A stretch of DNA of 64,000 nucleotides from Liopterus haemorrhoidalis (lineage: Eukaryota > Arthropoda > Insecta > Coleoptera > Dytiscidae), in NCBI GenBank assembly GCA_963971575.1, contig OZ020611.1, positions 6,522,882-6,586,881 of the forward strand, read 5' to 3'. The notes under the pieces are model-generated. The model ran no database searches. It was not told the origin of the DNA and saw nothing but the letters and a program-made list of their open reading frames with translations. Positions 5,000-59,765 of the stretch are shown in pieces. Numbering within the stretch: position 1 is the stretch's first letter; each line of letters begins with the position of its first letter. Both the position numbers and the translations under genes were made by a program.

Positions 5000-5966
5000 G
5001 ATGTGAAGTGTGAATTTTCACACATTTCTGGGTTTTGCAGGTATTTAGTAACTGAATGATGATTATTTGGGATGCCAAAACAAATTTTATGTCAAAATAT
5101 TTTTTTATGAATTTTAATTCGAATGCCTAATACCATTATTTGAGTTTCTAAATATATGCAGTATTTTTTTTATATAGCAAAGTTCATTAAGATTTTGAAA
5201 ATTGCACCTATGGCTTCCATTGGTTGCTTACATCATAAGTCCCGCCCTTTGATTTCGTCAAACATAGAATTACATTATAATTTCAACACTTTCCACTGGT
5301 TATTAAATTTACGCTTTTAAAAATTAAATGCACTATTTACCAAACATAACTAGAATTTTAACAAAATAATTTAAACAAAATAAAAATGCAAAAAAAAAAT
5401 AAAAAATAAAATCAACAGGATTCGAACCCTAGTTTGCAAGTTAACTTATATTATTAAGCGCACGACGAATACAACCACGCCACGAGTTACTGTTGCGATA
5501 TGTTACACAACGTATTAAATAGTTAACATATTTTAGTTAAAAACACAAAAAATGCGTTATTTTCCGAAAACATAATCTGATCAAAAATTCCTGTTGTACT
5601 ATTCCGGTTCACACCAAAGTACATTACTTAGAATTTTTTCAGATTTTTAGTTTAAACCATCTGGGCTACAGGGTGTGGGACAAAAATTTTTTTGCACAAT
5701 TTTGGCAAAAATCGCATCAAAATAATTTATTTTGCAAAAATAAAATTTTGATCATTAATCCACGTACTAAGGGCTTTTATTTGATACCCTACTCAGAATT
5801 TAAAAAAAATATTTTTTTTTTCGATGAGCACATATTTGTTTATATTTTTATATGGATATGTTTTTTAGATGTTTTAGTATTTTTCCTATGTGCGGGTCAA
5901 CGAGTTGTATAAGCATGCCAAATTTCAACTCTCTAGGTTTAGCCGTTTGGCTACAATTTTGACCGA

Positions 5967-6040
<74 letters not shown>

Positions 6041-6092
6041 GACAAAATGACGGTATAAGGGTTTTTTGGTCATACCTACAAAACCCTAAAAA
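5000..6092 (-). mobile_element. HINE-A copy 1, full length
   Basis: In its own orientation (minus) it begins AGGGTTTTGTAGGTAT (6072-6087) after a T run and has a GTCT microsatellite at 5967-6036. The body contains a tRNA-like module at 5412-5497. It ends with ATACCTGCAAAACCC (5030-5044) and the hairpin GTGTGAA-AA-TTCACAC (5008-5023), then TTCACATCAATTTTT. The two 16-bp subterminal repeats are inverted copies with one central mismatch. No target duplication is visible, as expected for rolling-circle insertion between T residues. It is about 1.09 kb long and non-coding. Confidence 0.82.
5412..5497 (-). pseudogene. tRNA-like module inside HINE-A copy 1
   Basis: On the minus strand the module reads CGTGGCGTGGTTG...CGTGCGC, a plausible A box, then GGTTCGAATCC, a perfect B box at 5418-5428. 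A T-rich run that could stop Pol III follows. Acceptor-stem pairing is poor, so a working tRNA is unlikely. The module sits between the same conserved HINE-A flanks as the modules in the other copies, but its sequence differs from theirs. Confidence 0.6.
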
Positions 6093-6529
6093 TTAGTTTC
6101 GTATATGCCAAACAACTTTATGCCAGAAAACTCATGTCTCTACCCTATTTCCTGGAGGGGGGGGGTCTGGTTTAGAAATCTGAAAGAATAAGAATGTTCA
6201 ATTTTCCTTTCGAAATCTTTTTTACCATTCTGTCCTCTTTCATCTTCTTCTCATGTCTATCCAATGTCGAATATTTGAACTAAAAATTTAATTTTAAATT
6301 CTTTATTTTTTAAATTGACGTATAATAAAAATAAAAAATTATGTGCTGACCACATCATTTTAGATATCATACTCAATGATTTCGATATACCTGTTTTATA
6401 ATAAAAGAAAATCACATAAAATTTCATTATCTCCCCTTACAAAACACTCGTATCAAAAACAACTTGTCTCCATCAAATCGTAAATTTTTTCCTGGAATAA
6501 AATAGGCTAAAAAAATTTAGTAGGTAAAG

Positions 6530-6745
6530 ACTCCCTCCGTCTCATACCCCTGACCTGTCTGCGATCCTTGAGGGTTTGTCCGAACGGGGTAAAAACGGCA
6601 AGCCCGAATTCCAGCATCCCTGGCACAAAAAACCGCCAGGCTAACGTCTCTCGCCGCACCACCTCACCACCACCTAGGGGTTGCGGACCGCCAATGTATC
6701 CGGGGTACGATACGACTACCTACTCCGGCTTGTCTGGGGACAGGT
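6530..6745. other. GC-rich island of unknown origin
   Basis: About 210 bp with CpG-rich stretches (GTCCGAACGGGGTAAAAACGG, ACGTCTCTCGCCGCACCACC, ATCCGGGGTACGATACGAC) contrasts sharply with AT-rich flanks. It ends ATTATTGAATAAAAC, like the 3' end of a retroelement. No open frame is convincing. It could be a transposon untranslated region or a decayed host exon. Confidence 0.4.
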
Positions 6746-7006
6746 AGATATTATTGAATAAAACACTTTTACTTTCTGACACCCTCATATTATTGATTTT
6801 TAGGTAATTTTTTGGTATTGTCCAATTTTGTGGCCGATTTAACTATATCACTAACTACCTAGGGCAGATACGTGATAAATTATTTGCAAAACAATACGCC
6901 ACAGGTAACGGGAATGCATGACAGACTTCGGTTAAATTAAACCAAATTATCAGTAAAATTAGTGTATTTCAATGACACTTCATTTGTTTTGATAAAATGT
7001 ATAGTA

Positions 7007-7642: not shown

Positions 7643-7649
7643 GACCATT

Positions 7650-9200
7650 TTTAGGGTTTTGTAGATATGACCACAAATAAAACCCTTATAACGTCACTCA
7701 TGTGTCTGTCTGTCTGTACGGTAGAAATTGTAACCAAACGGCTTAACATAGAAAACTGAAATTTGGTATTATACAACTCTTTGACCTACGTGCAACACAT
7801 GTAGGAGAAATACTAAGAGCTCAAAAAACGCATCCCGAGATAAATATAAACAAATATGTATTTAATAAAAACCAGTGGCGAAGGGAAACCTCCGCTAGAC
7901 TTGCCCTCCCATAAAAAATATATTTAAAAAAAAATGTAAATTAAAAAAAAAAAAATTTAAATATTTAGGTAAATCTTCAAAAATACATCAAATTATGTTT
8001 TATACAAATTTTTGTCCAAGGCTTGCTTTACAAGTTACGAATTAATTATCATGACCATGGAAACGTTACATATAAATATGAAAAAATTGAGACTTGGAAA
8101 AATTTTAAATAATTTTACAAAAATTTTTCGAAATTTTTCGTTTTATCAAAAAACGTCTCAAATAAAAGTTATTAGTTATTGCATTTATAGTAACTTTTGT
8201 TCAATAAATTTTTTCGAAATATTTTTCTGTTGCTAAATATTCGCAAAAATCTTAAAATCGACACGAGTTAACTCCCATTTCTAGTCAACCGATTTTCATA
8301 AAAAACAATAGGGTTCTTCCTATTTAATAGGAGAATTTTTTAGTACCAGAACGAACTCTTTAAGTTAAACCGTTTTTGAGTTATCGTGTATACACACAGA
8401 CAGACACACACACACACACACACACACACATACGGACGGCACTTCGAAAATAGGTTTTTTGGATTCCCTGGACCATGAAACGTGGTCATCCGTCAAAATC
8501 TCGACATCGAAAATTTTCGCAATTACAATACTTGCCCCTTATATATTAAGGTCGGGCAAGTAAAAATCATATTTTTTTAAAATTTTGCGTAGCATATCAA
8601 ATGAAACAAACCTTCCGATGGGAGAATCAACAAGCTTTTTTTATTTTTGAGACATTTTCGTTTTAATATGTAAAAAAACTTTTGCCCCCCAATCTATCTC
8701 TCAGAGGGGTCTATCTAAAAATCTGAAAAAAATCTCCATAATAAACATTGATGGAAACCAGAATAGTACAACAGGAATTTTTGATCAGATTTCTTTTTCG
8801 AATTTTTGTGTCGTCGATAAAATAAAAAGAATTTCAAAATTTATTGTGTGATATCAAAAGAAAGCTCTTAAAACGTAGATTAAGGAACAAGACGTAGTTT
8901 TTTTAAATTCGTTTCTCTTAAGACTATTTTAGTCAATAATGTGCTAAAAAGTTTCTTTTACCCAAAGGAGTTAAACTAAAATTCTGAAAAAAATTTAGGT
9001 AATGTTTAATGATCTGAGCCGAAAACGTATGAGAGTAATTTTTGATCAGATTACGATTTTGAAAAATATTGCAGTTTTTGGGTTTTTGACAAAATTAATT
9101 AAATTATAATTCATGGCTAAATTACGACTAATTATGTTATGGATTTTTTGTATTTATGGCTAAGAAAGAGGGTCTTTATTTGAAAAAATATAATAAAAGA
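7650..9200 (+). mobile_element. HINE-A2 copy, split by a HINE-C insertion
   Basis: Begins TTTTTAGGGTTTTGTAGATATGACC-like at about 7650, with a short GTCT run at about 7706-7721 and ACGGTAGAAATTG. It then follows the body also seen at 35500 (GATAAATATAAACAAATATG). After 7868 a reversed HINE-C copy intervenes. The A2 body resumes at about 8570 (TATCAAATGAAAC) and fades near 9200. The 3' subTIR and hairpin were not found. The end coordinate is approximate. Confidence 0.55.
7869..8566 (-). mobile_element. HINE-C copy inserted in HINE-A2
   Basis: On the minus strand it starts TTTTTACTTGCCCGACC at about 8566, with GGGGCAAGTATTG as an inverted match nearby. It carries a GT/CA-rich microsatellite (8398-8430) and ends near 7869 with CGGAGGTTTCCCTTCGCCAC. 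It matches 24660-25248 but lacks the 3' hairpin. Sequence at 7990-8290 shares blocks with family B (the ATTTCG, AACTTTTGTTC and AAACGTCTCAAATAAAAG runs), so B and C share interior modules. Confidence 0.62.
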
Positions 9201-10190: not shown

Positions 10191-10231
10191 ATGTATATTT
10201 GTTTATGTTTATCATGGGATATTTTGTTTTG

Positions 10232-11379: not shown

Positions 11380-12482
11380 AACCCCGTGATTTTTGTCTTC
11401 TTGGGGGTGGCTCAAACTCTGGAGCCACCCCCCCCCCCCTGGGTACACACTTTTATTGAAAAGACTTCTTTATAAAACTGAATTGTAGTCGATTTATTGC
11501 AGCTGTATAAGTATTTCTTGGTTTTATGTACGAAATTCTAAAATGGCTATAATTTTTTAATTATTTTTTTAAGTAGTATCAAAATAGAATTAATAAAAGT
11601 GTTTGGTGTATTTGGTTGCGCGGAAAAACAAGTCGATTATCGACGTAGGACGTAGGTAATACGTAATTCAGTGACATACATTTGTCTCTGCAACGAATAT
11701 TCACGGCTGGTAATGAAACTAAATTATAGACGTATTTTCGGGGTCCGCTTCATTCGTTTCCAATCAATATTACATACTTCCAGGAAATTGCTATTTAACC
11801 TACGTACACGTACAGGTATATGTCAGATCGCGAACTACAATCGACATATTTGTTTTTGACCAAGTCTCCTTACTACCTATAATTGTTTCCTGGTAAAAAT
11901 GTCAACCTTCTCATTTCAAAATAGAACACTGATATATTTTTAATTAACACAGGTTACATAAGAATTCGATCAATTTAGAAGAAAAAAGCTTATTATTAGT
12001 AGTAATAATATTTATTCTTGCCTTTCGGCTTCGAATTAGAGGACATTATTTTTTCCATGTTACACAATACTTACATGAAATTGAAAATACCGTATGAAAC
12101 TAGGAACATAGCAGTTTTAACATGGAATCTTAAATAGGTGCAGAAATTGGCTCTTTTGTACATTTTAGAGCAAAAATACAACAATAAAAAGTTGTTTAAA
12201 ATTAGTTTTTATTTGTAAAAAGTCTAAATTTGATGCCATAGAATGGCTGTAATACTAGATATTAGGACAATAAAATATAACGTTTTCATTAAAATACAAA
12301 TTGACGTGCAAAATTAAACACAACCAGGGTGCGTAAAAATCGTGAAAATGGAGAAAAACTGAACAGGTTATGCCTGGAGTAGAAATAGTATAAAGTCTAT
12401 TCCATAAGAGGGTTATTACATATGATAGACAACAAAAAAAAAACAGGTCCTCGTCTCTTTTTAAATCCATTTATTTAAAAAG
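11380..12482. other. Intergenic sequence, nothing identified
   Basis: A C run at about 11428-11440 next to GGAGCCACC may be a hAT end. Otherwise AT-rich, with no coding or structural signal that I can support. Confidence 0.35.
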
Positions 12483-13421
12483 TGATGTGAAGTGTGAATT
12501 TTCACACATTTCAGGGTTTCGCAGGTATTTATTAACTGTGTGATGATTATTTGGGATGCCAAAACAAATTTTATGTCAAAATATTTTTTTATGAATTTTA
12601 ATTCGAATGCCTAATACCATTATTTAAATTTCTACATATGTGCAGTATTTTTTTTTTTTTATATAGCAAGGTTCATTAAGATTTTGAAAATTGCGCCTAT
12701 GGCTTCCATTGGTTGCTTAAATCATAAGCCTCGCCCTCTGATATCTTCAAATATAGAATTAAATTATAATTTCAACACTTCCCACTGGTTATTAAATTTA
12801 CGCTTTTAAAAATTAAAGGCAACATTTACCAAAATATAACTAGAATTTTGACAAAATAATTTAAACAAAATAAAAATGCAAAAAAAAACTGAAAAAATAA
12901 AAATTGACGGGATTCGAACACAGTGTCTTACAGTAGCTTCAACTCACTAAGCGAAAACGCTACCACTGTGCTATACAGGATCACTCGTTTACTATGCTAA
13001 ATAGCGGATTAAATATATTACATATTTTACTTAAAAACACAAAAAATGCGTTATTTTCCGAAAACATAATCTGATCAAAAATTCCTGTTGTACTATTCCG
13101 GTTCACACCAATGTACATTACTGAGAATTTTTTCAGATTTTTAGTTTAAACCATCTGGGCATTTTTTTTGCACGATTTTGGCAAAAATCGCCTCAAAATA
13201 ATTTATTTTGCAAAAATATAATTTTGATCGTTAATCCACGTACCAAGGGCTATCATTTGATACCCTACACAGAATTGTAAAAAAATATATTTTTTTTGGA
13301 AGAGCATATATTTGTGGGGGATATGTTTTTTAGATGTTTTAGTATTTTTCCTATGTGCGGGTCAAGGAGTTGTATAAGCATGCAAAATTTCAACTCTCTA
13401 GGTTTAGCCGTGTGGCTAAAA

Positions 13422-13477
<56 letters not shown>

Positions 13478-13530
13478 GACAAAATGACGGTATAAGGGTT
13501 TTTTGGTCATACCTACAAAACCCTAAAAAA
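12483..13530 (-). mobile_element. HINE-A copy 2, full length
   Basis: In minus orientation the 5' subTIR AGGGTTTTGTAGGTAT sits at about 13509-13524, the GTCT microsatellite at 13421-13477, and the 3' subTIR ATACCTGCGAAACCCT at about 12513-12528. The hairpin GTGTGAA-AA-TTCACAC lies just outside it. About 1.05 kb, non-coding. It lacks a short piece (CTACAGGGTGTGGGAC) found in copy 1 at the equivalent point. It carries the tRNA-like module at 12904-12987. Confidence 0.82.
12904..12987 (-). pseudogene. tRNA-like module inside HINE-A copy 2
   Basis: The minus strand reads TAGCACAGTGGTAGCG, a near-perfect tRNA D-arm/A box. About 30 bases later comes GTGTTCGAATCCCG, a T-arm/B box, with T-rich DNA downstream. 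This is the best preserved pair of internal promoter boxes among the modules. The anticodon arm cannot be assigned with confidence. Its sequence differs from the modules in copies 1, 3, 5, 6 and 7. Confidence 0.65.
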
Positions 13531-21162: not shown

Positions 21163-21731
21163 TAGACCGGGAGCTCATGGCAGTTTTTGGTCTCCGATTT
21201 CATACAGCATGCCTTTTGGAGGAGATAATATTTACCCTGTGACAACAAAAAAGGGATGGTACTAAACCCCTGCACGCTTTCCGGTCATAGGGAAAATTGC
21301 ATTTCCACTTAAACACAAAATTTTTGTGCTTTTCTCTGATTTAATATTGCTTGCCCTTTTGTCAAAAGAAAGTTATAACAAATTTAAAGTCTTTTAAATA
21401 TATGCATGCGATTCGGAGGGTCCCAAAGGGCTCAAACGGTCATGTGATCTTGTAATAAAAAAATATGATTTTCCGCGTTTTCATACAGCATGCCTATAAT
21501 TAAAAGACTTTAAATTTGTTATTACTTTCTTTTGACAAAAGGGCAAGCAATATTAAATCAGAGAAAAACACAAAAATTTTGTGCAAGTGGAAATGCAATT
21601 TTCCCTATGACCGGAAAGCGTGCAGGGGTTTAGTACCATCCCTTTTTTGTTGTCACAGGGTAAATATTCTCTCCTCCAAAAGGCATGCTGTATGAAATCG
21701 GAGACCAAAAATGTCATGAGCTCCCGGTCTA
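21163..21731. mobile_element. 565-bp palindromic MITE, copy 1 (TA target)
   Basis: 21165-21729 starts GACCGGGAGCTCATGGCAG and ends with the inverse CATGAGCTCCCGGTC. The arms pair over more than 200 bp (for example GCATGCCTTTTGGAGGAGA, TACTAAACCCCTGCACGC). TA flanks both ends, as for Tc1/mariner-type MITEs. It is inserted in the mariner transposase C terminus. A second copy of exactly the same length lies at 52090-52654. Confidence 0.88.
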
Positions 21732-22016
21732 GAAGTTGGTATCTCAAAAACATGCTTTTCGAAGGCTTCAACAGCTTCTTGAGGTGATGAAAATCGCTGT
21801 ACACGCATTATTTGTTGGGATAAATCAGGTGAATATGGGCAATGAGACATTAATTCGATATTTTTCTCCTTCAAATAATCAATTGTTTGACGTGCTGTGT
21901 GGGAGCTTGCATTGTCATGATGAAGAATGATGCAACGTGTTTGGTTGTGTTTCTTGGTTTTGTCGATGACTTCTGGCAAACAAATTGTTGTATACCATTC
22001 AGCATTAACTGTTCTC

Positions 22017-22479
22017 TGATCCTCTAAAGCAGTGGTCAAACTTTTTCGAGTCGTGGAACCCTTTACAGTCTAACAATATTCCGTGGAACCACAAAAAATA
22101 CCTTAGATTGAAAAAAAAATATATATATATGGAAGTATAGTATATTTTATTAAGTTTTGCTCAGCTCCAAAATGTAAGTGATGAGCAAAAAAAGGTCCCC
22201 ACCTCTAAACTCCAAATGATGAGCAAAAAAAAGGTTCTCACCTCCAAAATTCAAGTGATGAGCAAAAAAAAGGTCCTCACCTCCAAAATTCAAGTGATGA
22301 GCAAAAAAAAGGTCCTCACCTCCAAAATCCAAGTGATGAACAAAAAAAAAAAGGTCATCACCTCTAAAAAGTATCAGCCAACGACCAAGTAATTTGTTTA
22401 TTGTTATTAAGTTAAAAAAAAGCTCGTGCAACCCCAGGATTCCATGGAACACAGTTTGAATATAGCTTGATCCTCTAAA
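22017..22479. mobile_element. hAT-like MITE carrying a 40-bp minisatellite, nested in mariner
   Basis: The insert (22029-22467) starts GCAGTGGTCAAACTTTTTCG and ends with CCATGGAACACAGTTTGAAT plus ATAGCT, hAT-like but imperfect ends. The mariner sequence TGATCCTCTAAA is present on both sides (22017-22028 and 22468-22479), a 12-bp duplication and longer than the usual 8. The interior has at least five copies of an about 40-bp unit (AAAAAAAGGTCCTCACCTCC, AAAATTCAAGTGATGAGC) at about 22170-22370. Confidence 0.75.
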
Positions 22480-24119: not shown

Positions 24120-24652
24120 GTTACAAAATATTTACTTCTAAAATTAAATAATTTTTTTATTTATTTATTCAAAAGAACACTTAAATGTACTTAAGCCAAC
24201 CCTTAAAATAATTTTTTTTATTTATGTAGTAAAAAGAGCACTAAATTTTACTTAATCTAACCCTTAAAATACATTTTTTTTTATTTATTCCCACCAAAAT
24301 ATACTTAATCAAACCATTAAAATATTTTTTTTTCAAAAGTACACGCAATTTAATTTATGCCAACTTGTAAAATAAAACTCTAGCTCTTATAGTTATGGCC
24401 CAAGTTGTCAAAAGCCCCAATTGTGAACGGCCCGAATTGTCCATCGCCCCAGTTGTCAATGGCCCCAGTTGTGCAAAGCCCCAATTGTGTACGGCCCGAA
24501 TTGTCCATCGCCCCAGTTGTTAATGGCCCCAGTTGTGCAAAGCCCCAATTGTGAATGGCCCGAATTGTCCATCGCCCCAGTTGTTAATGGCTCCAGTTGT
24601 GAAAAGCTCCAATTGTGAACGGCCCGAATTGTGTTACGGCCCCTGTTGTCAT
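24120..24652. mobile_element. Foldback element arm, solo copy
   Basis: AT-rich subterminal blocks (TACTTAAGCCAACCCTTAAA, CTCTTATAGTTATGGCCC) lead into an array of 16-bp monomers such as GCCCCAGTTGTGCAAA and GCCCGAATTGTCCATC, ending CAGTTGTCATGGAACC at 24652. It matches the right arm of the element at 49518-51553. Only one arm is present. Confidence 0.75.
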
Positions 24653-25585: not shown

Positions 25586-26238
25586 ACTCACCATCGCCAT
25601 CGGTGGATACAACTTTTTTCATTTTCCAACTCTGTTGCACGCAATGGTTAATTAAATGAGCAAAAGTGCAACCAAGAACAATCATTTTTCCAAGTATCGC
25701 AATCACTTATTAATATTTTTTAGTAGTCCAATAATTTTGCCATGAATAATAGAAGGGGAGCAGTGATTATAGTTTGAATAAAATTGCAAGTTACGACTGG
25801 CGAGTTAGTAGTTGAACTAATGGACATCTTAATATGTATAACGTATAATGAAAACTTAAATAATTTATTGAAATCAGATTTCGCGTGCGCACCAAATGGT
25901 GTCTTTCCACGAATCAATAAAGAATTAACCTGCATGATCTGATTGCAATTTTGTTTTCTCTGAAATACACAATAAAATATTCATTATTACATGTGATGTA
26001 TAGAATAGATTATAGCAGAGGAAATGTTTTCAGTATTAATAGTCAAAAACAAAGTTCCCAGACTTTGGTTTTAGATGATCGTGCTGACTAAAAGCTTTTT
26101 CCACCTCGGCCGATCTTGTGATTAGGATTCGTACAATAAGCCATAACTCTATAAATTTAATAACTGCATTGAAGAAAAGGAAACAAAATGTTTCTTTCTA
26201 CACATTTTTGATGTAAAGTAAACTATACAACAAAAAAT

Positions 26239-27219
26239 TGATGTGAAGTGTGAATTTTCACACATTTCAGGGTTTTGCAGGTATTTAGTAAGTGAATGAT
26301 GATTATTTGGGATGCCAAAACAAATTTTATGTCAAAATATTTTTTTATGAATTTTAATTCGAATGTCTATTACCATTATTTAAGTTTCTAAAGATGTGCA
26401 GTATTTTTTTTATATATCAAGGTTGATTAAGATTTTGAAAATTGCGCCTATGGCTTCCATTGGTTGTTTTTAGTCATAGCTCCTCCTCTTTGATTTCGTG
26501 TACATTCTGTACACGAAACTCATTCGTGTACACTGGTTATTAAATTTACGCTTTTAAAAATTAAATGCAACAATTGCCAATATAACTAGAATTTTGAAAA
26601 AATAATTTAAACAATATAAAAATGCAAAAAAATAAATAAAAAATAATATTGTCTCCTCTCGTAGGATTCGAACTCAATTTCTCGGGCAGAATGCAAGTAT
26701 CTTAGCCACTGCACCAAGAAACACGTTACTGTTTAGCGTCTATATAACTATATAACTATAACATTATTAGCAAAAAAACACAAAAAATGCTTTTTGTTCC
26801 AAAAACATAATCTGATCAAAAATTCCTGTTGTACTATTCCGGTTCACACCAATGTACATTACTTAGAATTTTTTCAGATTTTTAGTTTAAACCATCTGGC
26901 TACAGTGTGCCGGACAAAAATTTTGTTTTCACAATTTTGGCAAAAATCGCGTCTGAATTATTTATTTTGCAAAAATAAAATTTCGATCGTTAATCCACGT
27001 ACTAAGGGCTTTAATTTGATACCCTACTCAGAATTTAAAAAAAAAATATTTTTTTTTCGATGGGCACATATTTGTTTATATTTTTAGGGGAATATGTTTT
27101 TTAGATGTTTTAGTATTTTTCCTATGTGCGGGTCAAAGAGTTGTATAAGCATGCCAAATTTCAACTCTCTAGGTTTAGCCGTTTGGCTACAATTTTTACC
27201 GAACAGACAGACAGACCGT
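26239..27219 (-). mobile_element. HINE-A copy 3, truncated at its microsatellite
   Basis: The 3' hairpin (GTGTGAATTTTCACAC on the plus strand) and subTIR GGGTTTTGCAGGTAT are at 26246-26284. The body is intact, including the tRNA-like module. It runs to CCGAACAGACAGACAGAC at about 27204-27219, where it switches abruptly into CTGT repeats of the opposite strand that belong to HINE-B. The 5' subTIR is therefore missing. Confidence 0.78.
26658..26726 (-). pseudogene. tRNA-like module inside HINE-A copy 3
   Basis: The minus strand gives TTGGTGCAGTGGCTAAGATA, an A-box/D-arm form close to Gly or Glu tRNAs, and GAGTTCGAATCCTACGAG, a good B box. GGAGACAATATTATTTTTT follows. The last part (GAGACAATATTATTTTTT) is shared with copies 6 and 7, whereas the tRNA-like core is different. 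Confidence 0.62.
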
Positions 27220-27560
27220 CTGTCTGTCTGTCTATCCGTCCGTCTGTCTGTTCGTCTGTCTGTGTACACGTGCAGAGCAAATTCGGCTGAAAGGATTTTT
27301 ATGAAACTTCATATTTAAGCTTCTGCCATCAATGGCACAAGTTGATCAACTTTTGGTAAAAATCAGTTGACTAAAAATGGGAGTTTACTCGTGTCAATTT
27401 TAAGATTTTTGTGAATATTTCACAACAGAAAAATATTTCGAAAAAATTTATTGTACCAAAGTTGCTATAAGAGCAATAATTAATAACTTTTATTTGAGAC
27501 GTTTTTTGATAAAACGAAAAATTTCGAATAATTTTTGTAAAATTTTTCGAAATTTTCTCA
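27220..27560 (+). mobile_element. HINE-B fragment fused to HINE-A copy 3
   Basis: From GTCTGTCTGTCTATCCGTCC the sequence follows the family B body (GTGTACACGTGCAGAGCAAA, TTTTGGTAAAAATCAGTTGA) to about 27560, where a new HINE-B 5' end begins. It lacks its own 5' subTIR and 3' end. Confidence 0.65.
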
Positions 27561-34714: not shown

Positions 34715-35043
34715 AATGTGTCGGATCAAATTAAATTTAATAATATGGTTCTCATTTACAAAATTACCAATGGTCAGCTGCCATTTTACTTGTATAAATT
34801 ACTTAACTTAATTCAAATATGCATAACTATCCAACAAGAGGTCAAAATAATTTTTAAGTTAAATCAGTTAAAAAAAAAACATCTACAATGAATTCAATTT
34901 TCTTTAAAGGTATTATCGAATATAATAAGCTGCCCTTGAGTGTAAGAAAATGTTCAACAATTAATCAATTTAAAATTAAATATAAAGATTGGTTAGTAAA
35001 CGCTGTTGAACGTTGAGCAAATTATTGTATATTTTTAATGATT

Positions 35044-35126
<83 letters not shown>

Positions 35127-36700: not shown

Positions 36701-36892
36701 ATCATCATTCACTGACAACCTACAAAATCCTGAAATGTGTGAAAATTCACATCTTCACGTCAATTTTTAAGTCAATAATAAGAGATATTTTAAGTTAAAA
36801 AAAAACAGTTTTAGCCCCGAACACCCTATGGTCGAATCCTGGTTCCACTCTGTCATCATACCAAATTATGTGAAAATATGTCCATCGTGTTT

Positions 36893-39534: not shown

Positions 39535-41386
39535 GTGATAAACTTCTCATCCTCCAAAAGCAGTACTTAAATATCCCAATCAACAATCCTACACAGAGAG
39601 AAATACGTTTAAAGCTAAATATAGAAGGGCAATTAAACATGCTAAACTTACGGCGAATTCTAATTTTATCAAAAATTCAAATAATATTCCGAAAGCAACT
39701 TGGCAAATTATAAATAATAACCGGTTAAAAAATACACGGACCAATTGCGCTTCAACTCTTACTGCAAACAAAATTAATTCTTTTTTTGTAGATATTGCAA
39801 GCAATATAATTAATTCTTTACCCACTACTGACATTTCTCCTTTATCTTTTTTTCAACCAAATCTTATTCTTTCAAATAATCTTTTCACATTCGAAACTGT
39901 TTCTTTCAATACTGTAAGAGATATAATTAACTCCTTGAAAAATAGCAACTGTAAAGATGCATATGGTTTAAGTATGAATGTTGTGAAAAAGGTTAAAAAT
40001 ATTATAATATATCCTTTAACAAGAGTAATAAATACATGTATACTATCTAATTCTTTCCCCGACTCTCTAAAACTGGCATCAGTTATTCCGTTACATAAAA
40101 AAGGCGAACTGAATGATCCGAATAACTACCGTCCTATATCATTGCTCCCTGTCTTCTCTAAAGTGTTTGAAAAAATTCTTTTTAACCAGATAACGTCTTA
40201 TTTCGAATCCAATAACCTCTTTAGTGAGTCACAGTTTGGTTTTAGGAAAAATAGATCCACCACACAAGCTATTTTGGAATTTATTCTCGAAATATCCAGA
40301 TGTTTTGAAGCTAAAGAGTTTTGCTTATCTACTTTCTTGGATTTAAGCAAGGCTTTTGACTGTGTATCGCATGATATATTACTGGCTAAACTTGCTATGT
40401 ACGGTTTCAGTCACAGTAGCTGTTCACTTATAGAATCGTATCTAACAAACAGAAAACAGTTTGTATGTATAAATAATTCTAAGTCAGATTCGCTCAATAT
40501 TATGTATGGAGTACCGCAGGGTTCAATTTTAGGTACATTACTATTTTTAATTTATTTCAATGATTTCTCTTCTGCTATTGAGACGAAATCTATTTTATAT
40601 GCCGATGATACGACCCTTATAACAAGATCATTGTCCCTGGAACACATGCAACATGTTTCTAGTGATAATTTATCTAAAGCAAAAGACTGGTTTTTGTCAA
40701 ATAAATTATCATTAAATGAGGAGAAAACGCAAAATTTACTCATAACAACAAAAAATCATAACCATAATAATCCGGATTGCATTAAATTTTTAGGAGTCCA
40801 TATTGATCCTCATTTGATATGGGACCATCACGTTGCCCATATATGTGAGAAATTGTGCAAAACCATCTATCTTCTAAAAAACCTACAAAAAACAGTTACA
40901 AGGGATGTTTTATTAATTACGTATTTTGCGTTATTTCAGTCGCACATAGCATACGCTCTTTTAGCATGGGGACACTCTGCCTCTGCTGAAAGAGTTTTTA
41001 GACTACAGAGGCGTGCAATAAGAGTTATGGAGAGTGCATCTTATAGAGTCGATTGTAGGTTACTCTTTAAAGAATTTAGAATCATGACACTACCATCACT
41101 TTTTATCTATCATTGCTTAGTATATGCCCATCAAAACCTAAATTCTTTTGTCTCTTATGAAGACGTTCACAAATATAACACACGTAATAAATCAAATATT
41201 TACCCCAATTTTACACGAATAAATAAATCTAGATATAGTATTAACTATTATTCTATAAAGTTTATGAATTTGTTACCAGTCTCCACCAAAGAATTAAGTT
41301 CAGTACAATTTAAAAAAACAATTAAAAACTTATTGACTGAAAACCCAATGTATAGTTTTAAGGAATTTTTTGAACTTAATTTATAA
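39535..41386 (+). pseudogene. LINE ORF2 reverse transcriptase, 5'-truncated (Jockey/CR1/L2 group)
   Basis: The first about 400 bp encode the linker before RT (KYRRAIKHAKLTANSNFIKN, SNNIPKATWQIINN) with one frameshift near 39600. From 39935 a 483-codon frame is open. It has NNYRPISLLPVFSKVFEK, STFLDLSKAFDCVSHDILL, GVPQGSILGTLLFLIY, the catalytic ILYADDTTL (YADD at about residues 223-226), the thumb region KFLGVHIDPHLIWDHHV, and a C terminus YNTRNKSNIYPNFTRIN. It lacks the endonuclease domain. A stop at 41384-41386 is followed by a short 3' UTR and (ATT)n at about 41490-41512. The RT is otherwise intact, so this is a fairly young insertion into an (AT)n run. It is closely related in layout to the LINE at 44842-46881. 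Confidence 0.9.
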
Positions 41387-44744: not shown

Positions 44745-46882
44745 CTATAATAATAATAATAATAATAATAATACATTTATTGACTACATTACATAAAATA
44801 TGTTTACAGTCAGTCTTAGTTACATAATGAAATAATATAAATTAAAAATGAACATTATTAAAGTCATCAATTTCATAAATGGGATTTGTCAATAAATATT
44901 CTTTAAGTTTGTTTGAAAATGTCTTGATTGGTAGGGATCTTATTTCCTCAGGTATTATATTGAAAAATTTAATGGCGTAGTAGTTTGCGCTATTTCTTGA
45001 TTTTTGAAGACGAAGGAAATTACTACGTATATTATTTTTTTGCCGTGTGTCATGTCCGTGGTTGGAAGAGGGGAAGTTAGATAAGTTCCTGTGCATGAAC
45101 ATTAGGCCTTGGTAGATAAATAAGGCAGGTAAAGTCATTATTTTTAATTTAATGAAGAGCTCACGACAGTCAGCTCGAAAAGGAGCACCAGCTATGACCC
45201 TAACAACTTTGCGTTGAAGAGCGAAAATTCTATGGGCTGCTGGTGAGTGTCCCCAGACAAGAATGCCGTAGTTCAGGTGTGACTGAAATAACGAAAAGTA
45301 GGTCATTAGCACGACTTTTTGGCAAACTTCTGCTTTCAAATTACGAATTAAAAATACTGTAGACCTCAGTTTTCGGCTTAGGAATTCACAGTGCTGATCC
45401 CAGCGAAGTTGTGGGTCGATGTGGATACCAAGAAACTTGACGTACGGGGGGTTTGAAAAATCGTGTTTCTTAGTGGAAATCATCATTGATTCGGTTTTGC
45501 CAGTATTTAAAGTTAATTTATTCCTGTGAAACCAAGATGCGGCGTGTTCTACTACGGATTTACTCTCTAAGCGAAGGGAATTTAGGTTCGAATTTTTGCA
45601 GAATAAGATGGTATCATCTGCGTAAAGAATAGATTTTGAATTTATAAAGAGAGGAAAGTCATTTACGTACAGCAGAAATAGCAAAGGGCCAAGAATAGAT
45701 CCTTGCGGGACACCAAAGTGTATAGGAAGAGTTTCAGATTTGACATCACCAAAAAGTATAAACTGCTTCCGGTCTGATAAGTATGATTTGATTAGAGAAC
45801 GGCTGTTGTCATCAAATCCATAGAATATAAGTTTATTAATTAAAATATCATGCGAGATGCAGTCAAATGCTTTACTTAGATCTAGAAAGGTACTAAGGCA
45901 GTATTCTCTAGATTCAAGGGCGTCAGTTATAAAAGATATATATTCCAGAATTGCATCTGTTGTACTTTTACCGTATCTAAAACCAAATTGAGAGTTTGAC
46001 AGCAGACCGTTATCAATTAGGTGCTGAATCATTTGCTTGAAGAGCACTTTTTCAAATATCTTGGAAAATACAGGCAAAATGGAAATTGGTCGATAATTGT
46101 TAGCATCGTTACTGTCTCCCTTTTTCAGTATCGGTAGGACTTTAGCCAATTTAAGTCTGTCGGGAAAGCAGTTACTTGAAATTGAAAGATTAATTAGTTT
46201 CGTGAGAGGAGAAATGATAGGTTCTTTTACGGATTTTAATAGTTTTACGGGTATGTCATAAGGATCAGGAGTGTTACCGGTTTTAAGGGAGAAAATTATG
46301 TCTCTAATAGTGATTTCACTAACTGGTGAGAAAGAAAAATTTAGGTTTAGATTTGAGAAATTTAGAAGAGAGGTATTTGGAGATTGGTTAGATAAGGGAA
46401 GTTTATCGATAAGCGATTTGGCAATGTGAGAGAAGTGTTCATTAAATTGGTCTGGTGAGATGTTTGTATTGGGGAATCTTTTCGTGGTATTTCTTCTCTT
46501 ATTAATAATACTCCAAGAAGCTTTCTGTAAGTTATTTGACCTTATTATAAAGTTGGAGTGCGCTTCGATTTTGGCCTTTGATATTTCGCTACGATAGATG
46601 CCTTTAAATTTATTACGTGCAGCTTTATTTGCATTATTAGGATTTTTGAGGTATTGCTGGTTTAAGAAAGACAGGACATTTCTCATCTCACGAAGATGAT
46701 CATTGAACCACTTTACTTTTTTCAATAAGGTAGGCTGAGACGAAGTTTTGATTTTCTTTAGGGGAAAAGATGTTTCAAAATTCATATGAAAGAATTGAAA
46801 GAATTGTTCAAACATCTCGTTGGCGTTAGATGTAGAAGATAGAAAATCCCTACTATTCTTATTACATAAATTATCATCTTAC
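44745..46882 (-). mobile_element. 5'-truncated LINE insertion with (ATT)n tail
   Basis: On the minus strand the element starts at about 46882 in mid-ORF and ends with AATAAATGTATTATTATTAT at about 44755. It sits inside the RT of the older LINE, between its GFPQGS and ADD boxes. No clear target duplication could be read. Confidence 0.82.
44842..46881 (-). CDS. LINE ORF2 with intact reverse transcriptase (endonuclease missing)
   Basis: The frame is open without a stop from the 5' truncation point at 46881 (about 22 codons before the first ATG at 46815) to TAA at 44842. From that ATG, in order: linker KKVKWFNDHLREMRNVLSFL (about 31-50), NNYRPISILPVFSKIFEKVL (about 239-258), TFLDLSKAFDCISHDILINK (about 309-328), GVPQGSILGPLLFLLYVND (368-386), catalytic SILYADDTIL (YADD 398-401), KFLGIHIDPQLRWDQHCEFL, SLFQSHLNYGILVWGHSPAA, and a C-terminal domain ending NPIYEIDDFNNVHF. 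All RT catalytic aspartates are present. The AP endonuclease and ORF1 are absent, so it cannot mobilise itself. It is the longest and best preserved coding region in the window. Clade: Jockey/CR1/L2 group; finer placement needs a tree. Confidence 0.92.
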
Positions 46883-49967: not shown

Positions 49968-50984
49968 CAATTCGGGCCCTTCACAATTGGGGTTTTTGAC
50001 AACTGGGGCCATAACTATAAGAGCTTGAGTTTTCTTTTGTTTAAAATAAAAAATAATTATTTTACAAGTTGGCCTAAATTAAATTGCGTGTTCTTTTGAA
50101 AAAAAAATATTTTAATGATTTGATTAAGTACATTTTGGTGGGAATTAGAATAAATAAAAAAATTGTTAGGGTTGGCTTAATTAAATTTTTGTGTTCATTT
50201 GATTAAAAAGAAATTGTATTTTAAGGGTTAGATTAAGTAAAATTTAGTGCTCTTTTGACTACATAACTAAAAAATGTATTTTAAGGGTTGGCTTAAGTAC
50301 ATTTAAGTGTTCTTTTGAATAAATAAATAAAAAATATATTTAATTTTAGAAGTAAATATTTTGTAACTAAATTTAATTAATATGCGTCAACTACGAGAAA
50401 ATCAGTTTTGTTTGACTATTTTATTTCCATAGTTTTTTTTTTTTTTATGTATGATAGTATTTTTTTGTACATAGCTATTTTATATATCTCGTTTATAAAA
50501 AACAGGCAAAATTTTCTAGATTAACATAATAATAATTTAAAATTGATAATATCATGCCTCTAATGTGACTAAATTTTCAAATACATAATCTTCATAATAT
50601 TTGCTGCTTTCAGATTCTCGCCGATCGTAAAATTTTATGAGAATATTATCTTCGAATGCACGTGTACATAAACATTTTCTATTGGTTCAGAATTTAATGA
50701 ATGAGGGGAATATATAGTCAAAAGAGTACCAAATTTTACTTAATCTAACCCTTAAAATACATTTTCTTTTTAATCAAATAAACACGAAAATTTCCTTAAG
50801 CCAACCCTTAAAATACAATTTTTTTTATTTATTCTAGTTCCCACCAAAATGTACCCAATCAAACCATTAAAATATTTTTTTCAAAAGAACACGCAAATTA
50901 ATTTTGTTAGTTATGCCAACTCGTAAAATAATTATTTTTTATTTTAAACAAAAGAAAACTGTAGCTCTTATAGTTATGGCCCCA

Positions 50985-51540
50985 GTTGTCAAAAGCCCCA
51001 ATTGTGAACGGCCCGAATTTTCCATCGCCCCAGTTGTTAATGACCCCAGTTGTGAAAAGCCCCAATTGTGAACGGCCCGAATTGTCCATCGGCCCAGTTG
51101 TTAATGGCCCAGTTGTCAAAAGCCCTAATTGTGTACGGCCCGAATTGTCCATCGCCCCAGTTCTTAATGGCCCCAGTTGTGCAAAGCCCCAATTGTGTAC
51201 GGCCCGAATTGTCCATCACCCCAGTTGTTAATGGCCCCAGTTGTGCAAAGCCCCAATTGTGTACGGCCCGAATTGTCCATCGCCCCAGTTGTTAATGGCC
51301 CCAGTTGTGCAAAGCCCCAATTGTGTACGGCCCGAATTGTCCATCACCCCAGTTGTTAATGGCCCCAGTTGTGCAAAGCCCCAATTGTGTACGGCCCGAA
51401 TTGTCCATTGCCCCAGTTCTTAATGGCCCCAGTTGTGCAAAGCCCCAATTGTGTACGGCCCGAATTGTCCATCGTCCCTGTTGTTAATGGCCCTAGTTGT
51501 GAAAAGCCCCAATTGTGAACGGCCCGAATTGTCTTACGGC
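50985..51540. repeat. 64-bp higher-order minisatellite of four 16-bp monomers
   Basis: The 64-bp unit is GCCCCAGTTGTTAATG, GCCCCAGTTGTGCAAA, GCCCCAATTGTGTACG and GCCCGAATTGTCCATC in that order. It is repeated about eight times with small changes. Four monomers share GCCC(C/G)A(A/G)TTGT. Because 64 is not a multiple of 3, the apparent 60-80 codon frames on both strands shift with every unit and are not genes. Confidence 0.92.
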
Positions 51541-54672: not shown

Positions 54673-54675
54673 ATT

Positions 54676-55072
54676 TTGCATATTTAAGCTTTTGACATCA
54701 ATGGCACGAGTTGATAAACTTTTGGTAAAAATCGGTTGACTAGAAATGAGAGTTTACTCGTGTCGATTTTAAGATTTTTACGATTTTTTAGCAATAGAAA
54801 AATATTTAGAAAAAATTTATTTAACAAAAGTTGCTATAAATGAAATAACTAACAACTTTTATATGAGACATTTTTTGGTAAAACGAAACATTTTTGAAAA
54901 ATTTATCTAAATTTTTTCCAAGTATCTATATGTTCATACTTATATGTTTCCATGGTCATGATAAATAATATATCTAGAAAATATTAGGCCAAGTTATTTC
55001 TACTCTGCTGCTAGAATGTATTTTATACAAGTACTTTATGATGGCGGTCGATCCTGTGGTGCCCACAGCTGA
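54676..55072 (+). mobile_element. HINE-B 3' portion
   Basis: Family B body from TATTTAAGCTTTTGACATCA to the 3' end GATGGCGGTCGATCCTGTGG then TGCCCACAGCTGATTTTT. The next base run is the HINE-A 5' end, so B and A abut head to tail. Confidence 0.7.
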
Positions 55073-55151
55073 TTTTTAGGGTTTTGTAGGTATGACCAAA
55101 AAACCCTTATACCGTCATTTTGTCGTCTGTCTGTCTGTCTGTCTGTCTGCC

Positions 55152-55192
<41 letters not shown>

Positions 55193-55195
55193 GCC

Positions 55196-55266
<71 letters not shown>

Positions 55267-55702
55267 TCGGTAAAAATTGTAGCCAAACGGCTAAACCTAG
55301 AGAGTTGAAATTTGGCATGCTTATACAACTCTTTGACCCGCACATAGGAAAAATACTAAAACATCTAAAAAACATACCCCCCTAAAAATATAAACAAATA
55401 TGTGCTCATCGAAAACAAAAATATTTTTTTTAAATTCTGAGTAGGATATCAAATGAAAGCCCTTAGTACGTGAATTAACGATCAAATTTTTATTTTTGCA
55501 AAATAAATTATTTTGATGCGATTTTTTCCATGGTCATGATAAATAATATATCTAGAAAATATTAGGCCAAGTTATTTCTACTCTGCTGCTAGAATGTATT
55601 TTATACAAGTACTTTATGATGGCGGTCGATCCTGTGGTGCCCACAGCTGATTTTTAGGGTTTTGTAGGTATGACCAAAAAACCCTTATACCGTCATTTTG
55701 TC

Positions 55703-55780
<78 letters not shown>

Positions 55781-56040
55781 TCGGTAAAAATTGTAGCCAA
55801 ACGGCTAAACCTAGAGAGTTGAAATTTGGCATGCTTATACAACTCTTTGACCCGCACATAGGAAAAATACTAAAACATCTAAAAAACATACCCCCCTAAA
55901 AATATAAACAAATATGTGCTCATCGAAAACAAAAATATTTTTTTTAAATTCTGAGTAGGATATCAAATGAAAGCCCTTAGTACGTGAATTAACGATCAAA
56001 TTTTTATTTTTGCAAAATAAATTATTTTGATGCGATTTTT
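54947..56040 (+). repeat. Direct tandem duplication, unit about 578 bp
   Basis: TTTCCATGGTCATGATAAAT at 54947 recurs at 55525. From there both copies run through the HINE-B 3' end, the HINE-A 5' end and its microsatellite to GATGCGATTTTT. They appear essentially identical except that the microsatellite is about 64 bp shorter in the second. The junction is at TTTTT.CCA microhomology. Confidence 0.88.
55075..55524 (+). mobile_element. HINE-A copy 4, truncated by the tandem duplication
   Basis: 5' subTIR AGGGTTTTGTAGGTAT (55078-55093), the longest GTCT array in the window (55125-55266, about 140 bp with three CTGC interruptions), and body to GATGCGATTTTTTCC. The 3' half, including any tRNA-like module, is absent because the second duplication unit starts here. 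Confidence 0.8.
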
Positions 56041-56620
56041 GCCAAAAATGTGCAAAAAAAATTTTGTCCCACACCCTGTAGCCCAGATGGTTTAAACTAA
56101 AAATCTAAAAAAATTCTAAGTAATGTATATTGGTGTGAACCGAAATAGTACAACAGGAATTTTTGATCAGATTATGTTTTTGGAAAATAACGCATTTTTT
56201 GTGGTTTTTTGTTCACAAAGTACAAAAGTTATACCAATGTAAGACACTAACATGCATGGCGTGCGATGGCTACATGCGTTAGAGCACTCTTAAACTGGCT
56301 GGAAAACGAAGGGTTTCGAGTTCGAGTACGGAGTGAATTTTATTTTTTCTGTTTTTTTTTTTGCATTTTTATTATGTTGAAATTATTTTGTCAAAATTCT
56401 AGTTATATTTTGACAAATGTTGTATTTAATTTTTATGAGCGTAAATTTAATATCCAGTCTTATTATATGATTAACAGACGATAAATTATTTTAAAAATAT
56501 CGTTTATTTTGCCGTGATTACTACAAAGTAAAATTTGTCCTACACACTCAGCATACCGCCTTCACTTATTATATACCTGCGAAACCCTGAAATGTGTGAA
56601 TATTCACACTTCACATAAAT
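55655..56620 (+). mobile_element. HINE-A copy 5
   Basis: 5' subTIR at 55656-55671, microsatellite 55704-55780, body, tRNA-like module at 56257-56335, then a shortened 3' region ending ATACCTGCGAAACCCT, TGAAATGTGTGAATATTCAC and CACTTCACAT. One base change (AATA for AAAA) sits in the hairpin. About 130 bp of the 3' body (the ATGGCTTCCATTGG segment) is missing compared with copies 1, 6 and 7. Confidence 0.8.
56257..56335 (+). pseudogene. tRNA-like module inside HINE-A copy 5
   Basis: GATGGCTACATGCGTTAGAG then CACTCTTAAACTGG resembles a Lys/Ile-type D arm and anticodon arm. GTTTCGAGTTCGAGTACGG contains a B box with a small insertion. A T-rich run follows. Not folded convincingly into a full cloverleaf by eye. 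Confidence 0.55.
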
Positions 56621-56624
56621 TTTT

Positions 56625-57470
56625 TACAAGGTTTTTGTCTCAGGTTATCATCTAAGACAGACAAAACCATACGGAAAAAGCAGAAGAAGAAACTAAAAAT
56701 ATAGAATTAGGGAAATTTTACTGAATAAATGTTATATAATGTATTGCTGTTACAGATGCCCAAAATTTTTGTTCTGCTGGTATTTAACGAAACAATTTTG
56801 GTTAGTGAATAAATTTGATAACAATATTTTATAAAGAGCATCACGTATGATTATTTTAATGAAAAATATTAAATTTGTGTCCAGTTGGCAACAATGCAGG
56901 TATCCCTTAACTGCAAAATTGATCAAAAACTCGTTGATGCAGTAAATTTCCGGTCGGTTTGTTTTTTAAATTTGAAGGTGACTTTTGGCATTGCGCAGTG
57001 AAACGTATCGGGCATTAATTAAGGGAACTTACAACAGGGGAACACACATAAGAATGGTTTACTTATTACTTCCTGCCCCCACCCCTCCCAACAATACACC
57101 GTTGCAATTTTAAATGGAACACTAAACGGAAAACAATAAAATATATTTTACACATCCTTTATTTAGTTTATATCAATGAAATTAATTTAATTGCTGAAAA
57201 ATGTAAATACTTATGACAATTTCAAAATAATTCGGAGGATATATTAATTTTGTTCTTAAATTGAACCATTAAACGTCACTTAATTGAGAGAAAATGAAGA
57301 CAAAAAAATAATAATAATGGAATAAAGCGGATATGATAAAAGCATACTTTCATATTACAAATATTTACGGGTTTGAAAATGTATTAGTTGCCAAAATTAG
57401 TTACTTTTACTTTTTTTATGTTGATTGATATGGGGAAATTAAGAAATTATCCAACATTTTCATAATTGTT
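56625..57470. other. Intergenic sequence, nothing identified
   Basis: AT-rich with a C-rich spot at about 57075-57090. No coding signal. Confidence 0.4.
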
Positions 57471-57473
57471 TTT

Positions 57474-57520
57474 AGGGTTTTGTAGGTATGACCAAAAAAC
57501 CCTTATACCGTCATTTTGTC

Positions 57521-57568
<48 letters not shown>

Positions 57569-58522
57569 GCTCGGTATAAATTGTAGCCAAACTGCTAAAC
57601 CTAGAGGCTTGAAATTTGGCATGCTTATACAACTCTTTGACCCGCACATAGGAAAAATATTAAAACACTTAAAAAACATATCCCCCTAAAAATATAAACA
57701 AATATGTGCTCATCGAAAAAAAATATTTTTTTTTTTTAAATTCTGAGTAGGATATCAAATGATAGCCCTTGGTACGTGGATTAAAGATCAAATTTTAATT
57801 TTTGTAACATAAATCATTTTGAAGCGATTTTTGCCAAAATTGTGCAAAAAAATTTTTGTCCCACACCCTGTAGCCTAGATGGTTTAAATTAAAAATCTGA
57901 AAAAATTCTAAGTAATGTACATTGGTGTGAACCGGAATAGTATAACAGGAATTTTTGATCAGATATGTTTTTGGAAAAAAACGCATTTTTTGTGTTTTTT
58001 TGCTAATAATGTACACAAATTATAGCTTTGTAACACGCTAAACTAGAAGGTGTATGCTGGTCTAGTGGTTATGACGCTGGCTTTTCACCCAACTAACTCG
58101 ATCCGAAAGGGATCGAACCCTGCAAGAAGAGACAATATTATTTTTTGTTTTGTTTTTTTTGAATTTTTATATTGTTTAAATAATTTTTTCAAAATTTTAG
58201 TTATATTTTGGCAAATGTTGCATTTAATTTTTAAAAGCGTAATTTTAATAACCATTGGAAATTGTTTAAATTATAATTTAATTCTGTTTCAATGTACACG
58301 AAATCAGAGGGGCGGTGCTTATAACAACCAATGGAAGCCATAGGCGCAATTTTTAAAATTGCACATATTTAGAAACCTAAATAATGGTATTAGGCGTTCG
58401 AATTAAAATTAACAAAAAAAATATTTTAATATAAAATTTGTTTTGGCATCCCAAATAATCATCATTCACTTACTAAAATACCTGCTAAACCCTGAAATGT
58501 GTGAAAATTCACACTTCACATA
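57474..58522 (+). mobile_element. HINE-A copy 6, full length
   Basis: 5' subTIR at 57474-57489, microsatellite 57523-57570 (shortest among the plus-strand copies), tRNA-like module 58050-58132, ATGGAAGCCATAGGCGC segment, 3' subTIR ATACCTGCTAAACCCT and hairpin GTGTGAAAATTCACAC, ending CTTCACATAATTTTTTTT. A T5 run precedes the 5' end. Confidence 0.85.
58050..58132 (+). pseudogene. tRNA(Glu)-like module inside HINE-A copy 6
   Basis: ATGCTGGTCTAGTGGTTATG, then ACGCTGGCTTTTCACCCA closely follows the D arm and anticodon arm of eukaryotic tRNA-Glu (TGGTCTAGTGG; CTTTCACCC with a UUC anticodon). AGGGATCGAACCCTGCAAG gives the B box. GAAGAGACAATATTATTTTTT downstream includes a Pol III stop. The acceptor stem is not preserved. 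Confidence 0.68.
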
Positions 58523-58660
58523 ATTTTTTTTCATTTCACATAATTTGTTAGCCGATGTAAGAATGTTTTCATCCTTTCCTTGCATACATATATTGACAGT
58601 ATTAAAGTAATCAAAAATATCAGACAAATATGCCAATTTATTCCACCAATCATCATTTTT

Positions 58661-58707
58661 AGGGTTTTGTAGGTATAACCAAAAAACCCTTATACCGTCA
58701 TTTTGTC

Positions 58708-58785
<78 letters not shown>

Positions 58786-59765
58786 TCGGTAAAAATTGTA
58801 GCCAAACGGCTAAACCTAGAGAGTTGAAATTTGGCATGCTTATACAATTCTTTGACCCGCACATAGGAAAAATACTAAAACATCTAAAAAACATATCCCC
58901 CTAAAAATATAAACAAATATGTGCTCATCGAAAAAAAAAATATTTTTTTATAATTCTGAGTAGGGTATCAAATGAAAGCCCTTGGTACGTGGATTAACGA
59001 TCAAGTTTTTATTTTTGCAAAATAAATTATTTTGAACCGATTTTTGCCAAAATTGTGCAAAAATTTTTTTGTCCCACACCCTGTAGCCCAGATGGTTTAA
59101 ACTAAAAATCTGAAAAAATTCTAAGTAATGTACATTGGTGTGAACCGGAATAGTTCAACAGGAATTTTTAATCAGATTAGGTTTTTGGAAAAAAATGCAT
59201 TTTTTGTGATTTTTGGCTAATAATGTACACAAGTTGTAGCTTTGTAACACGCCAAACTGTAAGCTGTATGCTGGTCTAGTGGTATTAGACGCTGATTTTT
59301 CAACCAAGTAACCCGATCCGATAGGGATCGAATCCTGTGAGAAGAGACTATATTATTTTTTGTTTTTTTTTTTTTTAATTTTATATTGTTTAAATTATTT
59401 TTTCAAAATTCTAGTTATATTTTAGCAAATGTTGCATTTAATTTTTAAAAGCGTAAATTTAATAGCCAGTGGAAATTGTTTAAATTATAATTTAACTCTG
59501 TTTCAATGTACACGAAATCAGAGGGGCGGAACTTATAACAACCAATGGAAGCCATAGGCGAAATTTTCAAAATCTTAATGAACCTTGCTATATAAAAAAA
59601 TACTGCACATATTTAGAAACCTAAATAATGGTATTAGGCGTTCGAATTAAAATTAACAAAAAAAATATTTTAATATAAAATTTGTTTTCGCAACCAAAAT
59701 AATTATCATTCACTTACTAAATACCTGCAAAACCCTGAAATGTGTGAAAATTCACACTTCACATC
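58661..59765 (+). mobile_element. HINE-A copy 7, full length, inserted in a hAT pseudogene
   Basis: 5' subTIR AGGGTTTTGTAGGTAT at 58661-58676, microsatellite 58708-58784, tRNA-like module 59263-59348, ATGGAAGCCATAGGCG, 3' subTIR ATACCTGCAAAACCCT and hairpin GTGTGAAAATTCACAC to CTTCACATCAATTTTTT. The hAT transposase frame continues on either side, proving that both edges are true insertion boundaries and that they sit at T runs. Confidence 0.88.
59263..59348 (+). pseudogene. tRNA(Glu)-like module inside HINE-A copy 7
   Basis: TATGCTGGTCTAGTGGTATT then AGACGCTGATTTTTCAACCA, and TAGGGATCGAATCCTGTGAG with AAGAGACTATATTATTTTTT. It is the same module as in copy 6 with scattered changes, so these two copies share a recent ancestor. 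Confidence 0.65.

Follow-up and report, generated by a model that had tools for sequence, protein, structure and literature searches.

The window analysed here is a stretch of 64,000 nucleotides (nt) from the beetle Liopterus haemorrhoidalis (contig OZ020611.1, positions 6,522,882 to 6,586,881). It is AT-rich, with a GC content of 31%. BLAST searches with two copies of a repeated element recovered seven close copies of about 1.0-1.1 kb from the window, together with older fragments. The sequence features described below make it likely that this element is a non-autonomous, rolling-circle transposon of the HINE/DINE-1-like kind. Its centre holds a block of 153-166 nt, found at a single position and in a single orientation in all six copies that reach the site, which carries the boxes expected of an internal promoter for RNA polymerase III (Pol III). 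As read from the DNA, the feature is real and unusual: a Pol III-like block that keeps its place in the element while its sequence varies independently of the flanks. The seven copies, delimited by BLAST and alignment, are as follows.

4993..6092, minus strand: C1, full-length HINE-like element, both ends located
12477..13529, minus strand: C2, full-length element, both ends located
26232..27216, minus strand: C3, lacking a recognised 5' terminus and running into an inverted (GTCT)n array
55073..55530, plus strand: C4, 5' part only, without the module, stopping short of the module site
55651..56628, plus strand: C5, part of its 3' portion being unrelated sequence
57469..58528, plus strand: C6, full-length element, both ends located
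58655..59773, plus strand: C7, full-length element, both ends located

The (GTCT)n array of C3 meets the inverted (GTCT)n array at 27200-27263, and the 5' end of this copy is lost there. Within 55050-56640, C4 and C5 share an identical 5' flank, GATCCTGTGGTGCCCACAGCTGA, and C4 is therefore probably a local duplication of this flank together with the 5' end of the element. Older, diverged relatives lie at 7647-9097 (+), 10590-10195 (-), 34614-36769 (+) and 38228-37725 (-), and in some of them the block that precedes the module is present in tandem copies.

The first-pass annotation had proposed a HINE/DINE-like family, and the anatomy of the copies agrees with this proposal. In the accounts of PMC4067079 and PMC2374699, DINE-1/HINE elements, which are non-autonomous Helentrons, are defined by an anatomy that our element resembles in its subterminal inverted repeats, an inverted repeat beside the 5' one, a GTCY microsatellite, a 3' palindrome, T-rich ends and a variable centre. 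When oriented by its boxes, the element begins with TTTTTAGGGTTTTGTAGGTATGACCAAAAAACCC, passes into a (GTCT)n array and closes with AAATACCTGCAAAACCCTGAAATGTGTGAAAATTCACACTTCACAT and a T-run after it. The subterminal repeat AGGGTTTTGTAGGTAT matches its inverted 3' copy at 15 of 16 positions in the commonest form; the 5' repeat is absent from C3 and the 3' one from C4. The arrangement AGGGTTTT...AAAACCCT was directly observed at the 5' end of C1, C2 and C4-C7, the copies carry GTCY-type arrays, (GTCT)n or (AGAC)n, and the palindrome near the 3' end reads TGTGAAAATTCACA in C1, C2, C3, C6 and C7 and TGTGAATATTCACA in C5. Both ends carry T-runs, which fit a TT insertion preference as judged from occupied sites only.

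The central block consists, in this order, of an AT-rich spacer of 54-57 nt, a stretch of 61-73 nt that resembles a transfer RNA (tRNA) gene and contains the A box and the B box (the module), and a T-rich end. Its six occurrences are:

5390..5543, minus strand: C1 block, tRNA-like stretch 5417-5489, A box with one mismatch, B box exact, A-B distance 55 nt
12880..13037, minus strand: C2 block, tRNA-like stretch 12909-12980, A and B boxes exact, A-B distance 54 nt
26626..26778, minus strand: C3 block, tRNA-like stretch 26663-26723, A and B boxes exact, A-B distance 43 nt
56204..56362, plus strand: C5 block, tRNA-like stretch 56260-56330, boxes degenerate, failing the one-mismatch scan, A-B distance 53 nt
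57995..58160, plus strand: C6 block, tRNA-like stretch 58051-58121, Glu-like, A and B boxes exact, A-B distance 53 nt
59209..59373, plus strand: C7 block, tRNA-like stretch 59265-59336, of the C6 module type, A and B boxes exact, A-B distance 54 nt

The earlier statement that six of seven copies carry an A/B box pair at a fixed site and in a fixed orientation thus holds, the seventh copy (C4) being truncated, and the module positions given at that time agree with the tool-anchored tRNA-like stretches of all six copies. The left anchor of the block, ATCTGATCAAAAATTCCTG, is exact in C1, C2, C3, C5 and C6 and has one mismatch in C7; it is also found exactly at 8772, in an older relative, and with two mismatches at three further sites. 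C1, C2, C3 and C5 carry the right anchor, GCATTTTTAT, in exact form, and C6 and C7 carry it altered. A further sequence, GAGACAATATTATTTTTT, has one mismatch in C7 and none in C3 and C6. No exact B box was found within the 526-751 nt that follow the anchor in the three older relatives checked, a result weakened by their decay. A direct repeat, GCATTTTT, stands at both block edges in C1, C2, C3 and C5 and might be the scar of one ancestral insertion, a reading made weak by its T-richness. The B boxes of C6 and C7 lie within a hairpin arm (58100-58125 and 59315-59340; TCGATCC/GGATCGA in C6), and a lone B-box-like sequence, GTGTTCGAATCCCAG, occurs at 25507 (-), outside any copy of the element.

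We then scanned both strands of the whole window for box pairs spaced 28-70 nt apart, with 25 first-order Markov sequences as the null. Pairs with both boxes exact occur four times in the window, all of them in modules (C2, C3, C6 and C7), against a mean of 0.28 and a maximum of 3 in the Markov sequences. When one mismatch in total was allowed, 11 rows were obtained, 7 of them in five modules, against a mean of 13.3 expected. The looser form thus shows no window-wide enrichment, and what makes the pattern strong is where the pairs sit and how they are oriented, not how many there are. The A-B distance is 53-55 nt in five of the six modules. Among the five distinct modules the mean pairwise identity is 0.58 for the A box and 0.82 for the B box, while ungapped windows of the same width have a mean of 0.40 (maximum 0.52) in the spacer and 0.27-0.29 (maximum 0.34) in the interior between the boxes. 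Both boxes are thus more similar than every spacer or interior window of equal width, a comparison biased towards similar boxes because these were placed by consensus. TTTT follows the B box at 7-21 nt in all six modules, in DNA whose AT-richness makes T-runs frequent. The order of a type 2 Pol III promoter unit (A box, B box, T-run) is therefore present in the sequence, with one A-box mismatch in C1 and degenerate boxes in C5. The layout is not that of a short interspersed nuclear element (SINE), since the boxes are internal (in C6 they lie about 470-610 nt in from the 5' side) and are followed so closely by TTTT.

The modules were not recognised as tRNAs. ARAGORN reported zero tRNAs, and Rfam gave no tRNA match at gathering cut-offs; at relaxed thresholds it found none in the whole window, in 56200-59400 (C5-C7) or in C3, with C1 and C2 covered only by the whole-window runs. 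Folding of the modules was unremarkable (z -0.09 to -1.75), with no excess of tRNA-like folds, and neither score nor cloverleaf marks a tRNA gene. Isotype likeness was gauged against 29 human tRNAs, with P values uncorrected for six modules. By this yardstick C6 and C7 resemble Glu-TTC beyond the boxes (P 0.006 and 0.032) and C5 resembles Asn/Lys (P 0.014), while C1, C2 and C3 match no isotype (P 0.414, 0.326 and 0.224). The Glu-like character that the first-pass annotation had assigned to C6 and C7 is thus upheld as a resemblance and not as a tRNA call. The variable unit also exceeds the size of a tRNA, as about 55 nt of upstream spacer are diverged as well, though homologous in most pairs.

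In the six module-bearing copies, all from this one window, the flanks and the modules are discordant. Measured over the 5' block and some 90 columns of the proximal 3' flank, the distance between flanks lies at 5.8-8.8% in all 15 pairs. The 464 gap-free flank columns contain 65 singletons and 13 two-state shared variants, and the 379 columns of the 5' block alone contain 49 singletons and 10 two-state shared variants, the latter in nine conflicting patterns. Because singletons dominate, most flank change probably postdates insertion, and the source elements were nearly alike. Between the boxes, gap-tolerant alignment identities overstate the similarity of modules, and shuffle-tested comparisons were used in their place. 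Only the C6-C7 pair beat all 1000 shuffles, which bears out the claim that the modules differ from one another except in these two copies; four of the other 14 pairs reached 0.010-0.050, none of which survives correction for 15 pairs. C6 and C7 have an ordinary flank distance (0.071), yet only 8 of 42 positions between their boxes differ; for the remaining 14 pairs the count is 14-23 of 32-35. Flank distance is uncorrelated with either spacer distance (rho -0.20) or interior distance (rho 0.10).

Spacer homology reaches z ≥ 3 in 12 of the 15 pairs, and in 14 of them the interior is more diverged than the spacer of that pair predicts, 14 being counted out of all 15. When only shared or multistate columns were counted, the mean pairwise difference was 0.027 in the flanks, 0.305 in the spacer and 0.556 in the interior (random 0.74). 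Since the flanks are alike and the interiors are not, the block was, in the source elements, either replaced or exchanged, or it evolved at about 10-20 times the flank rate. The first-pass annotation had set a single tree for modules and flanks against its exchange model; in these six copies the two divergences are discordant, so that the block was not inherited along a single tree through point mutations accumulating as slowly as those of the flanks. Identity along the element drops from about 65 nt upstream of the A box, reaches its minimum of 0.37 between the boxes and is restored some 50 nt beyond the B box. The ratio of transitions to transversions is 0.41 in the spacer and 0.56 in the interior; the 5' flank has 0.80 and the proximal 3' flank 0.59, so that no transition excess is seen in the block.

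Mosaic structure was examined at columns where C1 and C2 agree and differ from C6 and C7, in two alignments, with positions taken from the core alignment. From -86 to -21, C3 agrees with C6/C7 at 10 of 11 such columns, and from +79 to +154 at 4 of 4; from +319 to +372 it agrees with C1/C2 at 6 of 6. C5 sides with C6/C7 at 8 of 10 columns between -58 and -5, and between +10 and +130 it sides with C1/C2 at 10 of 10 (7 of 10 in the other alignment). The max-chi test gave p values of 0.028 and 0.001 for C3 and of 0.013 and 0.04 for C5 in the two alignments, which is suggestive of recombination in both copies. Variation extends beyond the module: the element has a second variable stretch on the 3' side, at about +190 to +260, and a 3' stretch of C5 is unrelated sequence. 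The mosaic structure of the element therefore has more than one site.

Several histories could underlie this discordance. The first-pass annotation had suggested cassette replacement, or capture of tRNA genes or SINE heads; discordance of block and flanks agrees with the former, and the latter fares worse. Repeated copying of different host tRNA genes, tRNA fragments or SINE heads into one site of the element appears unlikely, even though the anticodon region of C6 and C7 is Glu-TTC-like, C5 is Asn/Lys-like, the interiors of most module pairs align no better than chance, and four modules have exact A and B boxes. Neither ARAGORN nor Rfam calls a tRNA, no excess of tRNA-like folds was seen, three modules fit no isotype, and the spacer beyond the tRNA-like part is diverged yet homologous. 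Among the tRNAs used for comparison, only those for Ser and Leu have boxes 54-55 nt apart, the other isotypes having 43-46 nt; a distance of 53-55 nt in five of six modules would be an odd outcome of independent captures. Altogether, swapping of tRNA genes in its simple form is probably not the explanation, and from its sequence the block looks like one old unit that has diversified with its promoter boxes kept. Chance box matches in the generally variable centre of a mosaic element are very improbable. The lack of enrichment of one-mismatch pairs, the second variable stretch and the variable central region of DINE-1 described in PMC2374699 would suit them, but all four exact pairs of the window lie at the same place and in the same orientation in the element, and B-box identity stands at 0.82 within a region at 0.27-0.40.

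Another competitor, also fairly unlikely, is a single ancestral block that evolved very fast in the source elements with its boxes under selection and with no exchange. Transcription-associated mutation is known at tRNA genes, and Pol III transcription could drive such a process here. The graded dip in identity centred between the boxes, the near-constant lengths and the homologous spacer would all follow, and the C6-C7 block is already more diverged than its flanks. This explanation, however, requires that, in shared variants, the spacer changed about 11 times and the interior about 20 times as much as the flanks; it also finds no transition excess, in pairs that are not independent, and leaves the possible mosaics C3 and C5 to be accounted for.

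We tentatively favour, at a little short of an even chance, a HINE/DINE-1-like transposon in which the block of about 155 nt is a predicted self-terminating Pol III unit, present in five versions in six copies and exchanged between lineages. The block would have entered the family once or rarely and diversified in separate lineages, its boxes and their spacing being kept by selection for binding of TFIIIC and Pol III. Recombination or template switching between element lineages, in the course of rolling-circle copying or gene conversion, would then have transferred the blocks to a single backbone that was active recently. With TFIIIC on the A and B boxes, Pol III may produce an RNA of about 87-101 nt, assuming a start 13 nt before the A box, that ends in the T-run. 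This predicted RNA lacks the body of the element and therefore would not be a transposition intermediate. The most economical role, which is speculation, would be a local one, in that open chromatin or an exposed single strand could serve a trans-acting Helentron enzyme; alternatively, the RNA itself may have a function. The stronger proposal of an exchangeable Pol III cassette, traded as a whole unit at one site with its boxes kept, and acting as a renewable recruiter of Pol III that aids mobilisation or escapes version-specific silencing, is more doubtful.

A number of observations weigh against exchange of a Pol III unit between lineages. The sample is only six copies from one window, and divergence rises gradually towards the module and not only at clean breakpoints. 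The block of C6 and C7 differs at 20 of 164 positions compared with 38 of 606 in their flanks (p 0.018), as a fast-evolving block would. The mosaic signal is modest and depends on the alignment, the neighbour-agreement p values being 0.106 and 0.0038 for C3 and 0.052 and 0.435 for C5, and the Fisher p values for spacer versus 3' columns 0.20 and 0.010 for C3 and 0.15 and 0.019 for C5. The absence of enrichment among one-mismatch pairs, the consensus placement of the boxes and the abundance of T-runs count on the same side.

Pattern scans for copies outside the window returned, among genome contigs, only nine archaeal or bacterial loci, with similarity confined to at most 24 nt around the pattern; with so little shared with the elements, these were taken as chance matches. 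Scans of viral contigs gave none, or four loci with only a 17-mer in common.

The window also contains other repeats. Minisatellite arrays at 24395-24651 and 50976-51533 have a common 64-base unit rich in GGCCCCAATTGTG. Six open reading frames (ORFs) of at least 120 amino acids in the window were read by eye. A long ORF at 39935-41386 resembles, by eye, a reverse transcriptase of the kind without long terminal repeats (non-LTR), and a fragment at 21653-22039 appears mariner-like on the same basis. A further long non-LTR reverse transcriptase-like ORF at 44842-46815 matched PF00078 proteins in a protein search, the species-named matches among the best 120 of 7924 being from Callosobruchus.

Among known systems, DINE-1 is the highest-copy repeat of Drosophila melanogaster according to the title of PMC4067079. 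PMC2374699 describes DINE-1 of D. melanogaster as having neither a Pol III promoter consensus nor similarity to tRNA, and DINE-1 of other flies as likewise lacking Pol III sites and tRNA-related structure, whereas boxes are found here in all six blocks, four times in exact form. Hel-2 and related lepidopteran Helitrons, which have a broad insect distribution, resemble our element by description in carrying (CTGT)n downstream of the 5' subterminal repeat (PMC4344730); the word tRNA does not appear in the main text of that source. Among the matches listed, which include few subscription papers and preprints, no title or abstract describes modules of tRNA-like or Pol III type in a Helitron or Helentron.

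The closest parallel is offered by the SINEs HaSE1 and HaSE3, in which, as described in PMC3272025, one body is joined to different Pol III heads and template switching is invoked. Those are retrotransposons that move through an RNA and carry their promoter at the 5' end, whereas our element has internal boxes followed by T-runs and is likely a rolling-circle transposon. If the reading we favour is true, promoter-cassette exchange occurs in a likely rolling-circle element whose RNA would not be the transposition intermediate, unlike in SINEs (PMC3272025). Recruitment of Pol III would then be a novelty among transposons of this type and a possible reason why some non-autonomous copies might outcompete others. 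The transcript of a SINE includes its body; the RNA predicted for this element would not.

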